From: Rudaea sp.
GTDB taxonomy: Bacteria > Pseudomonadota > Gammaproteobacteria > Xanthomonadales > Rhodanobacteraceae
Assembly: GCA_025451955.1 (NCBI GenBank)
Contig: JANWJJ010000085.1
Coordinates: 1-33,888, forward strand
Direction of reading: 5' to 3'
DNA: 33,888 nt
The notes under the pieces are model-generated. The model made no database searches, had not been told where the DNA came from, and saw only the letters and a program-made list of their open reading frames with translations. Positions 1-29,748 of the stretch are shown here, in pieces. How positions within the stretch are numbered: position 1 is the stretch's first letter; each line of letters begins with the position of its first letter. A program made the position numbers and the translations under genes.

Positions 1-119
1 CCTCCCTGGCGGATACAGCAGCGTGGTACCACCCGATCCCATCCCGAACTCGGAAGTGAAACGCGCCCGCGCCGATGGTAGTGTGGCTTAAGCCATGCGA
101 GAGTAGGTCACTGCCAGGG
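1..119 (+). rRNA. rrf: 5S ribosomal RNA (5' end at or near the window start)
   Basis: Canonical 5S blocks: CCTGGCGG...CCCATCCCGAACTCGGAAGTGAAACG...GCGCCGATGGTAGTGTGG...CATGCGAGAGTAGGTCACTGCCAGGGG. Confidence 0.95.
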
Positions 120-3879: not shown

Positions 3880-4068
3880 TGGCGCCCTCCGCGATGCCGG
3901 TGCACACCAGACGACCTTGATCCCAAGGATCAGGTGGGAAAGCTCGCCGGTCTTCAGGCTTTCCGCTCACGGCGGACTTGCACACGGACTGGGGCACTGC
4001 AATCCCGGGGTCGTATATAGGGCCAAGGCAATAATGTTTGGATGCGCTGTCGCGCACCGCAGGGGACG
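3880..4068 (-). ncRNA. ssrS: 6S RNA
   Basis: On minus strand: AAAGCCTGAAGAC, TGATCCTTGGGATCAAGG, GGCATCGCGGAGGG match E. coli 6S blocks; 5' CCCTGCGGTGC pairs with 3' GCATCGCGGAGGG; ~189 nt; conserved zapA-6S-ygfA order. Confidence 0.87.
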
Positions 4069-24819: not shown

Positions 24820-27303
24820 TCATGCCGGCACCGGAACCGGGTCGTTGCCGACCAGTTGCTTGAGCGACGATACGATGGCCTTCCAGGCGCGGTCGACGAG
24901 CGATTCCTGCTCGGGTTCGACGATGCTGGCCTGACCGCCGATGATGTCGAGCGCAAGTTGCTCGAGCATGCGTTCGTCGGTGCGCACGCCGCGTTGATTG
25001 ACGAACAGACAGCGGCCGGTGAGGGTGGAAAACCACGCCAACTTGCGCCGTACCTTGTCGCCTTGTTGATTGGTGCGGAACTCGAACCAGGTGCCGAACG
25101 GCAGGGTCTTCAAGCGCTCGAACATGCGCGCCTGCTCACTGTCCGGCACCAGTGGTTTTTTCTTTTGCGCGGGTTTCGGCTTCGCCGGTTCGTCGAGGCC
25201 GATGTCGCCAAGACGGGTCTTGCTCTTGAGCTTGATTGCCAGCTCGGTGTTCGAGCTCGGGTTCTCGTCGTTCGCCGCCTCTTCCGGCAGGAACAAGTGC
25301 TTGACCACGGCCTGGATGTCGTCCTTGTGATAGCCGACCTGACCCAGCCCGGTTTCGATTTCCGCGCGCAACGCCATCGGGGGCTTGGAATCGCGGCCGC
25401 CGCCGCTGGCGAGCAATTGATCCGCCACGGCCAGGCGCTGCTTGTAGGTTTCGCTGTTTTCGCCCTGGCGCAGCAGGGTCAGGGCAAGGACATCCGTCCA
25501 GGCCTTTTCGAGCAGGGTGCGCACCAGCTTGTTCGGGCGCGCGGCGGCGATGCGCGCATTGATTGCGTCGCCAGCCTGTTCGCGCGCGACCACCAGTTTT
25601 TCCCGGCCCTTGGCGGCATCGACATGACGCCGCTCGGCCACTTCGGCCTTGCGCGCCAGTGTATGCATATGCTGCGACAGATCGCCGAGCATGTTTTCCA
25701 TCAGGCCCAGATCGCCGTCGAATTCCTGGGTGACGCGATCGACCACGATCTGCATCTTGTCGACCAAGCTGCGATCGGCCGGACCTTCGCTGTCGTCCAG
25801 CCAGTGACTGCCGGTTTCGGCGATCGCGTTGAGCAGTTGCCGTGCGGGATGCGTGCGCCGGGTGAAGAAGCTCTTGTCGCGCAATGCGACGCGCAGTAGC
25901 GGCACCTGCAACTTGGTCATCAGCGATTGCGTGCTGCCATCCGGGCGCACGTTCTTCATGATGTAGTCGAACAACATGCCGACCAGATCGATGGTGTCGG
26001 AATCCTCGGCAGCCAGTTGCGGCGTCTTGCCGTCGGGTGCGAGCTGGCGCAGGTGCGCGAGCAGATCCTGCTTCAGATGCGCCACCGAGCGCTGCACCAC
26101 TTTGCCACCCATCATCAGCGGCGAGATCGGTTTGGATTGCAGCGCACCGAGCACCGATTGCACGTCGTCGCCACTGGGGATGTGGCCGCTGCCGCCGGCC
26201 GCGGTATCGGCAACGCCCAGCGCATGCCGGCGTCCGGCCAGCAGTTCGCGCAGCGTGGTGAACAATTCAGAATCGCGTTCGTCCGCCGGCGCGGCATGTG
26301 CTTGCTCGGATGGCATCCAGTTGGGCATGCCGCCCGCACGCGGCGCCGTGTCCGCACCCATTGGAGCAGCGGGATAGGGGTGCATCCCGCGCGGCGTGTC
26401 CCGCGTAGGCGAAGTCGCTGCACCCGCACGGGCGGCTGGCGATGGCGAATATCCGAGCGGTGCTTGTGCTTCGGCTTGCCGCGATTCGGCTTGCTTGGCC
26501 GCCTCCGCTGTCGCGGTGTTTTCTGTAGCAGTGGCGCTGCCTTTGCCTCGCGGCATTTGCGCGCGCAGGTTGCGCAAGATGCGCTGATTGATCAAGTAGG
26601 TATTGACCGCTTCGTAGAATTCGCCGATCGCGCTGGTCGCCATCTGGTCGAACGTGCGATAGAGCAGAACGCGATGGTCGGTCGTGATGTCGAGGCAGGC
26701 GCAGGCGTGGCGCAGTGCGTCACCAAGCCGCGGCGGCCCGATCGGCAAGGTCTCCGCGTCGAACGCGGGCGCGCCGGCGAGCACGCCAAAACGATAGCCG
26801 AGTGCCGATAGCGCCGGCGCCTGGCGGATTTCGGCTTTTGCCGCGAGTTCCTGCAAGGCCAGCGATTCTTCCAGGTCGCTGGTTTCCACCAGCGAAAGTT
26901 CTTGCTTGACGGGTGTACCGGGACGCCGTTGCGCCGGTGCGTCGACAGCCGCCTCATGCTGGCGGTCGAAACGCGCCAGGGCATCTTCCATTGCCAGCAT
27001 ATAGCGAGGCGCGACATCGGCGCGGCCGCGCTTGATCTCGCGCAAGGTCTCGAAACATCGGTGTTGCTGTTCGTTGCTGCGACCTTGTTCGGCCAGCTTG
27101 AACAACTGCATCTCGACGTCGTTCAAGGTCGCCACCAAGGCGCGTTCCAGTCCGCTGGAACAGGCACTGAGAATGCCTTCGAGCAGGTTGCGCACACGCG
27201 GCGCAAGATCGGTGCGGCTGGCCAGCACAATCAGTGCCGGTTCGCTGTCGCCGATTTTCGGTCCCACTCCGCGTGTCGCCTGGTTCATGCTGTCGATCCC
27301 CAT
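24820..27303 (-). CDS. DUF1631 family protein
   Basis: 827 aa; VVQRSVAHLKQDLLAHLRQ...DLVGMLFDYIMKN...LQVPLLRVALRDKSFFTRRTHPARQLLNAIAETG and C-terminal GTWFEFRTNQQGDKVRRKLAWFS typical of DUF1631. Confidence 0.9.
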   Translation of the reverse strand: MGIDSMNQATRGVGPKIGDSEPALIVLASRTDLAPRVRNLLEGILSACSSGLERALVATLNDVEMQLFKLAEQGRSNEQQHRCFETLREIKRGRADVAPRYMLAMEDALARFDRQHEAAVDAPAQRRPGTPVKQELSLVETSDLEESLALQELAAKAEIRQAPALSALGYRFGVLAGAPAFDAETLPIGPPRLGDALRHACACLDITTDHRVLLYRTFDQMATSAIGEFYEAVNTYLINQRILRNLRAQMPRGKGSATATENTATAEAAKQAESRQAEAQAPLGYSPSPAARAGAATSPTRDTPRGMHPYPAAPMGADTAPRAGGMPNWMPSEQAHAAPADERDSELFTTLRELLAGRRHALGVADTAAGGSGHIPSGDDVQSVLGALQSKPISPLMMGGKVVQRSVAHLKQDLLAHLRQLAPDGKTPQLAAEDSDTIDLVGMLFDYIMKNVRPDGSTQSLMTKLQVPLLRVALRDKSFFTRRTHPARQLLNAIAETGSHWLDDSEGPADRSLVDKMQIVVDRVTQEFDGDLGLMENMLGDLSQHMHTLARKAEVAERRHVDAAKGREKLVVAREQAGDAINARIAAARPNKLVRTLLEKAWTDVLALTLLRQGENSETYKQRLAVADQLLASGGGRDSKPPMALRAEIETGLGQVGYHKDDIQAVVKHLFLPEEAANDENPSSNTELAIKLKSKTRLGDIGLDEPAKPKPAQKKKPLVPDSEQARMFERLKTLPFGTWFEFRTNQQGDKVRRKLAWFSTLTGRCLFVNQRGVRTDERMLEQLALDIIGGQASIVEPEQESLVDRAWKAIVSSLKQLVGNDPVPVPA

Positions 27304-27449: not shown

Positions 27450-29279
27450 TCAATGCGGCGGCTGCCAGATCAGCTCGACATAGCCCGAGCGGCCCGGTGT
27501 GTTGTAGCCGTGGGCCAGTTCGTAATCGCGGTCGAAGGCATTTTCCAGCCGCAGGCCCAGCCGCCAGGCGGCGGTCAGTGCGTAGCTGGCGCGCAAATTG
27601 ACCAGGGTGTAGGCGCCCAGCGTCACCTGGTCGACGTCCTGGCGCTTGCCGCTGTAGACGAATTCGGCCCCGATGCGACCGCGCGCGCCCAGCGCCCGTT
27701 CGAGCACACTGGTGAACTTCTGTTTTGGCCGGCGCAACAGTTGTGCGCCGGAATCCGCGTTGCGCGGATTCTGTAGCGTCAGATTGTCGTCGAGCGACCA
27801 GACGGCAGCGCGCCAGTGGTGCGTCAGCTCGATGCCGTCGATGGCGGCACGATCGATGTTGATGGCTTGAAATAGCGTACCGCCGGAGAAATCGATGAGA
27901 TCGTGCACGCGCGTGGAAAACGCATGCGCCGCGATCTCGTTCGCCGCGTCGAGCGTGATTTCGGCGCCCAATTCGGCTGTGCGCGAGCGTTCGGGATCGA
28001 GCGCCGGATTGCCCGCGTAATAACCGCCGTAACCGGGCGAGTAGAGTTCGTTGAGCGTCGGTGCGCGGAACGCAGTGCCGTAGCTCGCAGTCAGACGCAC
28101 GCCATCGCCAGCCTGCCAGCCGAGCGCGGCGGAACCCGAGAACGCGCCGCCGAACGGATCGCTGTGGTCGTAGCGGCCGGCAATCTCGCTGTCGAGATCG
28201 CTGGCCTGCGTGCGCCAGCCGGCAAAGACGCCACGATTGTTGCGCGCCACATCGTAGGGCGCGCCGAACCCGGAGTCGTCGATGCTGACACCGCGATCGT
28301 GCGCGTAATCGAAGCCACCGACGATATGCTGCGTTGTGGACAATGCGACATCGTTCGTCCACGCAATTTGTTCGCGCGTCGAGGTGTAGGCGCTCTGGAA
28401 CGCTGGCGTGTCGATATCTTCGCGCGAGGTGCCAACGCTCAGTCGATGCTGCCAGGCATCGCTCAGCGCGCCTTCGAGATTGACGCCCACGGCCTGATCG
28501 AGCGTGTGCGAAATACCCTGGCCAGGATCACCGTTGTCGAAGCTTTGCGTGCCTTCGCTGCGAAACAGGCTGGCCGACAGGGTTTGCGCGGCGAGCCGGT
28601 AATCGCCCTGGGCGACGACGTTGTGATTCTGGAAGCCGTTGTCGTCGGGATTGTAGACGTAAGGGCCGGCGGCGGGATTGGTCGCGGAAAATCCGCCGAC
28701 GTGGCGTGCGCCGACCTGCACGCTAAAGCCGCCGTCAGCGGACTGCGCACCGATGCCCGCGCTGCCATCGGCACTGCGGTAGCTGCCATAACTGGCGGCG
28801 ATATGCGGCGCGTCGAGTTTGCGCGTGAAGATCTGGATCACGCCGCCGATCGCATCCGAACCCCAGTAGCTGGCGCGCGGCCCACGCACGATCTCGATGC
28901 GCTCGATTGCATCCAGCGGCAGGTTCTCGAACGCGAACGCGCCGGTGTTGGCCGAGGCCACGCGCACACCGTCGATCAGCACCAGCACGTGATTGGAATT
29001 GGTACCGCGCAGAAACACGTTGGTTTGTTCGCCGGCACCGCCGGTTCGCGCCACGTCGACGCCGGCTTGCAGGCGCAGCAAGTCGAGCAAGTCCGGCGCC
29101 GCGCTGGCATCGATGTCGGCGCGCGTGATCACGCTGACATCGGCGAGACTGGCATCGACGGTTTCGCTCACGCGCGAGGCGGTGACTTCAACAGTCGGCT
29201 GTTCGGTGACGTCTTGCGCCAGCGCGTTGACGGCAAAGGTGGTGCCGAGAAAAAAAGATAAAAAGGATTTTTGCAGCAT
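27450..29279 (-). CDS. btuB: TonB-dependent vitamin B12 receptor BtuB
   Basis: VEVTASRVSETVDASLADVSVITRADID plug, GTNSNHVLVLIDGVRV, barrel ending GYNTPGRSGYVELIWQPPH; preceded by cobalamin riboswitch. Confidence 0.93.
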   Translation of the reverse strand: MLQKSFLSFFLGTTFAVNALAQDVTEQPTVEVTASRVSETVDASLADVSVITRADIDASAAPDLLDLLRLQAGVDVARTGGAGEQTNVFLRGTNSNHVLVLIDGVRVASANTGAFAFENLPLDAIERIEIVRGPRASYWGSDAIGGVIQIFTRKLDAPHIAASYGSYRSADGSAGIGAQSADGGFSVQVGARHVGGFSATNPAAGPYVYNPDDNGFQNHNVVAQGDYRLAAQTLSASLFRSEGTQSFDNGDPGQGISHTLDQAVGVNLEGALSDAWQHRLSVGTSREDIDTPAFQSAYTSTREQIAWTNDVALSTTQHIVGGFDYAHDRGVSIDDSGFGAPYDVARNNRGVFAGWRTQASDLDSEIAGRYDHSDPFGGAFSGSAALGWQAGDGVRLTASYGTAFRAPTLNELYSPGYGGYYAGNPALDPERSRTAELGAEITLDAANEIAAHAFSTRVHDLIDFSGGTLFQAINIDRAAIDGIELTHHWRAAVWSLDDNLTLQNPRNADSGAQLLRRPKQKFTSVLERALGARGRIGAEFVYSGKRQDVDQVTLGAYTLVNLRASYALTAAWRLGLRLENAFDRDYELAHGYNTPGRSGYVELIWQPPH

Positions 29280-29446
29280 TGTGTACTCCGTACGCTCACC
29301 CGCGATTGATGGCAAGACGTGCGGAAGACGGAAGGGTGCCGGCGGACGGTTGCACGGCGGCCCGACCGTTGCCCGCCGCAACGCCTTGAGCTTGAGTGAC
29401 CGCAATAACTGCGGGCCACATGCCACAGGCCGGTCTCCGGGCTTGC

Positions 29447-29483
29447 AAGTTGAGAAGTGCGATCATGGAAGATCGCAAAATAC
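29447..29483. repeat. Hairpin repeat, short copy, inside the riboswitch
   Basis: AAGTTGAGAAGTGCGATCATGGAAGATCGCAAAATAC; hairpin GCGATC-atggaa-GATCGC (29459-29476). Confidence 0.85.
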
Positions 29484-29576
29484 CTCTCGTCGATCCGATC
29501 GCCTTCCCACGTCTGAACGCAGTGGCGTGATGACCGGATGGAACTTGCTTACCGTTGCGGGGGCAGCGCTGGAATA

Positions 29577-29645
29577 AAGTTGAGAAGTGCGGTCATGGAC
29601 GACCGTTTCTTGATTTTCGCGATCATGGATTGATCGCAAAAATAC
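29577..29645. repeat. Hairpin repeat, long (two-hairpin) copy, inside riboswitch P5 loop
   Basis: AAGTTGAGAAGTGCGGTCATGGACGACCGTTTCTTGATTTTCGCGATCATGGATTGATCGCAAAAATAC; same ends as the short copy plus one extra hairpin unit. Confidence 0.85.
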
Positions 29646-29748
29646 GCAACTTGCACCAGCTTCCCGTTTCACCTGCGATGAGCGATCACCGCGGGCACCT
29701 GCGACGCGGCGCAGTGTAGGGGCGCAACGATGCCTGCGCAACCTTGCG

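Follow-up and report, generated by a model that had tools for sequence, protein, structure and literature searches.

The window analysed here, a stretch of 33,888 nucleotides from a Rudaea sp. genome (G000 in our survey), carries on its minus strand a btuB gene preceded by a cobalamin riboswitch. The BtuB product is intact (609 residues), and its top NCBIfam match is TIGR01779 TonB-B12 (E 3e-138, under the curated cut-off). The aptamer, a full-length covariance-model match scoring 101.3 bits against a gathering score of 31.5 for RF00174, lies in the leader of btuB, a gene related to B12, with 131 bases between it and the start codon at 29279. Elsewhere in the window are a gene for a large DUF1631 protein downstream of btuB (24820-27303, minus strand), a 6S RNA (3882-4068, minus strand) and a 5S rRNA (5-119, plus strand), the two RNAs both above their Rfam gathering scores and ordinary. 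The features of the gene and its leader, in window coordinates, are:

27450 to 29279, minus strand: btuB, TonB-dependent B12 receptor (Pfam PF07715 and PF00593)
29277 to 29290, minus strand: likely ribosome-binding site CGGAG and btuB start codon (from the sequence)
29368 to 29382, minus strand: likely P13/L13 hairpin GUUGC-GGCGG-GCAAC, read from 29382 to 29368 as GTTGCGGCGGGCAAC (from the sequence; kept in relatives)
29411 to 29717, minus strand: cobalamin riboswitch aptamer RF00174 (cmscan, E 2.7e-25, model positions 1-189)
29554 to 29567, minus strand: P5 hairpin region without insert, L5 being CCCCCG at 29563-29558 (Rfam alignment; L5 consensus in PMC10653944)

The RF00174 alignment opens a big insert between GGUGC and UUCC, and a further 37-base insert ahead of the 3' strand of P7. 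The first of these had been described in an earlier note made from the letters of the window alone, which recognized the cobalamin riboswitch and saw that a large insert with two hairpins occupies one of its terminal loops; the covariance model opens its insert exactly there. The separation of GGTGCAA from TCCAGC by 77 bases (29650-29574, minus strand) stands as first described, as does the pairing of AAGTTG (29652-29647) with CAACTT (29582-29577) around two hairpins. What the analysis adds is the second insert in the aptamer (29485-29449), and the recognition that both inserts are copies of a dispersed repeat. The elements of the two insertions (where R1 denotes a covariance model of the repeat, built from 20 of its copies) are:

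29656 to 29660, minus strand: 5' arm of P4, GCUGG (Rfam alignment, fold)
29653 to 29655, minus strand: 5' segment of the L4 T-loop, UGC (read from the sequence; T-loop as described in PMC2258182)
29647 to 29652, minus strand: 5' strand of the closing stem, AAGUUG (fold; covariation across riboswitch copies)
29579 to 29646, minus strand: repeat copy 1, two-hairpin form, in L4 (blastn; R1 77.7 bits, E 7e-21, R1 E-values being rough and copy 1 being among the 20 copies in the model)
29619 to 29637, minus strand: hairpin H1 of the repeat core, GCGATCAATCCATGATCGC (fold)
29590 to 29605, minus strand: hairpin H2 of the repeat core, CGGTCGTCCATGACCG (fold)
29577 to 29582, minus strand: 3' strand of the closing stem, CAACUU (fold)
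29573 to 29576, minus strand: 3' segment of the L4 T-loop, UAUU (read from the sequence; register taken from an alignment of riboswitches)
29568 to 29572, minus strand: 3' arm of P4, CCAGC (Rfam alignment)
29449 to 29485, minus strand: repeat copy 2, single-hairpin form (R1 E 3e-5; its 3' motif is exactly as in copy 1)

The stem interrupted by the 77 extra bases is P4. The earlier note was right that a terminal loop had been entered, but it placed the insert in P5, a reading rejected on the Rfam alignment and on the published numbering, in which the L5 kissing loop is a short C-rich hairpin with the consensus UCCCG/GCCCG (PMC10653944). In the covariance-model alignment P5 closes normally, and its loop is the intact CCCCCG. 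Relatives conserve both this loop and the downstream hairpin whose loop contains CGGG, and by complementarity the CGGG could pair with the CCCG of L5. The proposal that the insert sits in L5, and so abolishes or rewires the L5-L13 kissing contact, has in its favour nothing except the presence of a terminal-loop insert; it is already contradicted by the intact L5 and the identity of the interrupted stem, and deserves almost no credence.

The P4 loop is a T-loop, and the interruption of T-loops by inserted helices is both known and tolerated (PMC2258182). The insert enters the triloop of L4 after the third loop nucleotide (UGN^RANN), and the riboswitches carrying the repeat fit the pattern of a helix-interrupted T-loop, UGN-helix-RANN, with its U and A and two 3' bulged nucleotides. 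T-loop positions U1 and A5 are kept in the repeat-bearing riboswitch copies examined; the window's own aptamer is an exception at position 4, where it has U rather than a purine. P4 with its insert has a predicted folding energy of -34.2 kcal/mol, which dinucleotide-shuffled controls place at z = -5.1. The riboswitch copies are predicted to share one order of elements, with z from -3.8 to -7.0: the 5' arm of P4 leads through three loop bases into the closing stem, which carries the two hairpins, and four further loop bases return to the 3' arm of P4.

The inserted element is one member of a repeat dispersed throughout the genome, the genus and much of the family. Searching the window's own genome with the insert by blastn returned 12 places, 10 of them outside this contig, and R1 returned 38 matches; the approximate consensus, in the sense of the riboswitch, is TATTTTTGCGATCATCCATGATCGCGAAAATCAAAAAGCGGTCATCCATGACCGCACTTCTCAA, which forms two hairpins that are alike in orientation. 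Intergenic gaps hold 25 of the 27 copies assessed (on rough gene calls), and some copies lie head to tail. Matches occur in all 16 Rudaea genomes, at 12 to 98 per genome, and in at least 179 of 234 genomes of the family that holds Rudaea; no Rfam family was found for the repeat. The assembly that supplied the window is fragmented (154 contigs, 81% complete), and arrangements of a like kind are found in independent assemblies from relatives. Tandem arrays of two or three copies also lie between genes (G000:C46:11506-11698, C1:7361-7488 and C128:30983-31111), one strand of which is a hairpin followed by a T-run and resembles a terminator, and other copies adjoin or lie near tRNA genes (L144 in G000:C84 and L158 in G000:C128).

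In its short palindromes, mostly intergenic location, frequent two-hairpin or tandem arrangement and many copies, this repeat is like the REP, BIME and REPIN elements. It differs from them in that its hairpins share one orientation, in its 12-98 matches per genus genome, in the absence of any GTAG or CGTC tag at the repeat end in aligned copies, and in having no consistent RAYT (Y1_Tnp) partner. No Y1_Tnp transposase was found in the window's own, 81% complete, genome; among the 16 genomes of the genus the domain occurs in five, in three of them over the cut-off. A REP driven by a RAYT was rejected on the basis of that absence and patchy distribution. A role for the repeat as a terminator within the leader was likewise rejected, because a terminator-like reading exists on the antisense strand only, with about as many matches as in shuffled sequences, and because the dispersed copies are not uniformly oriented relative to genes. 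That antisense-only resemblance may explain why the repeat stands in a single orientation in riboswitches.

Within the family the repeat was found in L4, at an identical point and in identical orientation, in 14 riboswitches from 13 genomes. Twelve precede btuB: the two-hairpin form is present in G000, G005, G011, G016, G186, G077, G078, G089 and G101, and a single-hairpin form in G081 and, twice, in G080 (whose two btuB copies, L085 and L108, have nearly identical leaders, each with the single-hairpin repeat in L4). One of the others precedes mmsA (G014), and one precedes nrdA in the type strain Rudaea cellulosilytica DSM 22992 (L058, G008:C1:219228-219552). The earlier note had allowed that homologous leaders across the family might show the insert to be a normal extension. 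In a pattern survey of the 234 family genomes P4 extensions of many kinds proved common, but the repeat-derived kind is rare; other extension hairpins are seen, for example, in G192-G235, G060-G075 and G151-G172. An order-level pattern search gave no riboswitch-like match outside the family, with a pattern that was not exhaustive: it recovered G008, G014, G016, G077 and G078, and missed G000 because the 5' segment there is longer.

Comparison with empty orthologous sites bears directly on how often the repeat has been captured. In about 30 other genomes the nrdA leader has only an empty 7-nucleotide loop (for example UGCGAAU), which shows that the repeat was inserted at nrdA rather than being ancestral there; in the mmsA leader of G019, L4 is also empty, and the mmsA site was likely filled by insertion rather than being ancestral. 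For btuB, strongly supported branches of the BtuB tree force at least six changes (gains and losses together) of the two-hairpin state. The copy in the window is nearest to dispersed copies from its own genome, at an identity of 0.88 as against 0.82 for those in other riboswitches; this speaks for a separate capture, with the caveat that 54 aligned bases resolve such relationships poorly; the repeat is only some 66 nucleotides long, and a phylogeny of its own is correspondingly weak. A single ancient capture in the ancestor of the family, followed by many losses or reshapings, would account for the GUUG/CAAC stem and related hairpins common to G005, G011, G077, G078, G080 and G081. Such a history fails for the nrdA riboswitch with its empty orthologues, does not readily explain mmsA, and does not easily cover the window's copy with its nearest kin in its own genome; as an account of the whole pattern we judge it unlikely. 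For the btuB copies with the GUUG/CAAC closing stem, which is common to several genera (G005 and G011 being 0.94 identical), one old capture followed by losses, or transfer, may apply, so that the count of independent captures is uncertain. The best explanation of the set as a whole is at least three captures, in btuB, nrdA and mmsA riboswitches, and probably more.

The closing stem indicates that the captured repeats have been fitted to their new surroundings. In every riboswitch copy the repeat's tail forms a stem with the strand directly after UGN, by means of AAGUUG/CAACUU in the window and of GUUG/CAAC, GAGG/CCUC, GAGUG/CGCUC and GAGAAGU/ACUUCUC elsewhere; the dispersed copies show no consistent closing stem. 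When the T-loop sets the register, the true arms of eight stem types make 41 pairs, against a mean of 20 for permuted arms (p = 0.0003). In a hand-made alignment with fixed register, all four of the outer pairs tested change on both sides, none of 500 shuffles scored as high, and slid controls fail.

Such covariation is not expected from decay, the alternative in which the inserts have left the riboswitch weak or inactive and btuB is expressed without control by B12. Decay would be in keeping with the presence of two repeat copies in one aptamer, and with the U at the fourth T-loop position in the window's own copy. Against it stand the still high model score (101 bits) and the conservation of the core, L5, L13, the ribosome-binding site and the 609-residue BtuB (whose intactness is no proof of regulation), and we regard decay as quite improbable, somewhat more so than the single ancient capture. 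Judged by sequence, the insertions spare the B12-binding core as well as L5 and L13, so that binding of B12 to the leader most likely still brings about repression of btuB translation.

The second copy lies just 5' of the 3' strand of P7, a place that in relatives holds at most a short hairpin, and stands in place of the short hairpin found in relatives such as G005 and G002. The btuB leader of G014 holds a degenerate repeat copy (21.7 bits) at the corresponding site. This copy also bears on a preference for target sites, under which the mobility machinery would recognize the P4 hairpin or loop sequence and make L4 a hot spot. One exact position has been used repeatedly, and a rough calculation based on the number of copies and the length of intergenic DNA suggests that far fewer than one match to that position would be expected by chance in the family, both of which points speak for targeting. 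The site of copy 2 in the same aptamer differs, however, the dispersed copies have no obvious common flanking target or hairpin, no convincing target-site duplication was seen in the flanks of the repeat, and the Y1_Tnp distribution described above offers no consistent machinery. Targeting is therefore the less probable account, if the most serious of the alternatives considered here, and we infer instead that selection lies behind the common site: capture at L4 would recur because few other sites would let the aptamer keep its function with such an insert.

Taken together, these observations make it highly likely that a dispersed palindromic repeat has been captured repeatedly as an optional helix of P4, with the B12 switch still working. 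A mostly intergenic, two-hairpin repeat would insert into the P4 T-loop as an optional helical domain; its tail would then pair with a complementary strand that the dispersed copies lack, creating a new stabilizing stem; and the resulting architecture (P4, T-loop, closing stem, H1, H2) would form a three-way junction directed away from the core. Insertions would be kept where the aptamer tolerates an extra helix and the core still folds.

Repeats inserted in other functional RNAs are known, as with the Rickettsia palindromic elements and the cyanobacterial STRR in rnpB, although the hosts in those cases are not riboswitches; to our knowledge neither recurrence at one nucleotide nor a covarying closing stem has been described for them. 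In the freely accessible literature searched, no account of a repeat within a riboswitch aptamer was found. The window's riboswitch shares with the AdoCbl riboswitch RF00174 the whole aptamer, the B12 box, L5, an L13-like hairpin and btuB downstream, and is set apart from it by a genomic repeat in the P4 loop and a second copy beside the 3' strand of P7. With the helix-interrupted T-loops of Barrick and Breaker (2007; PMC2258182) it shares a base-paired helix inserted in the P4 T-loop; those insertions are nonconserved stem-loops, whereas the helix here is a member of a dispersed repeat, captured repeatedly.

Many riboswitches tolerate long 'variable insertions', and the comparison of filled with empty orthologous sites now reveals one source of them: a dispersed repeat, whose copies were captured several times at one nucleotide and there acquired a covarying stem. 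In cobalamin riboswitches the P4 T-loop may even be a recurrent docking site at which mobile hairpin repeats are domesticated and come to tune folding or response, a broader idea that we put forward only tentatively. The nrdA leader of Rudaea cellulosilytica DSM 22992, with the repeat in L4 where some 30 others are empty, provides the best and a directly testable system, and the family as a whole offers a natural test case for the growth of structured RNAs by accretion.
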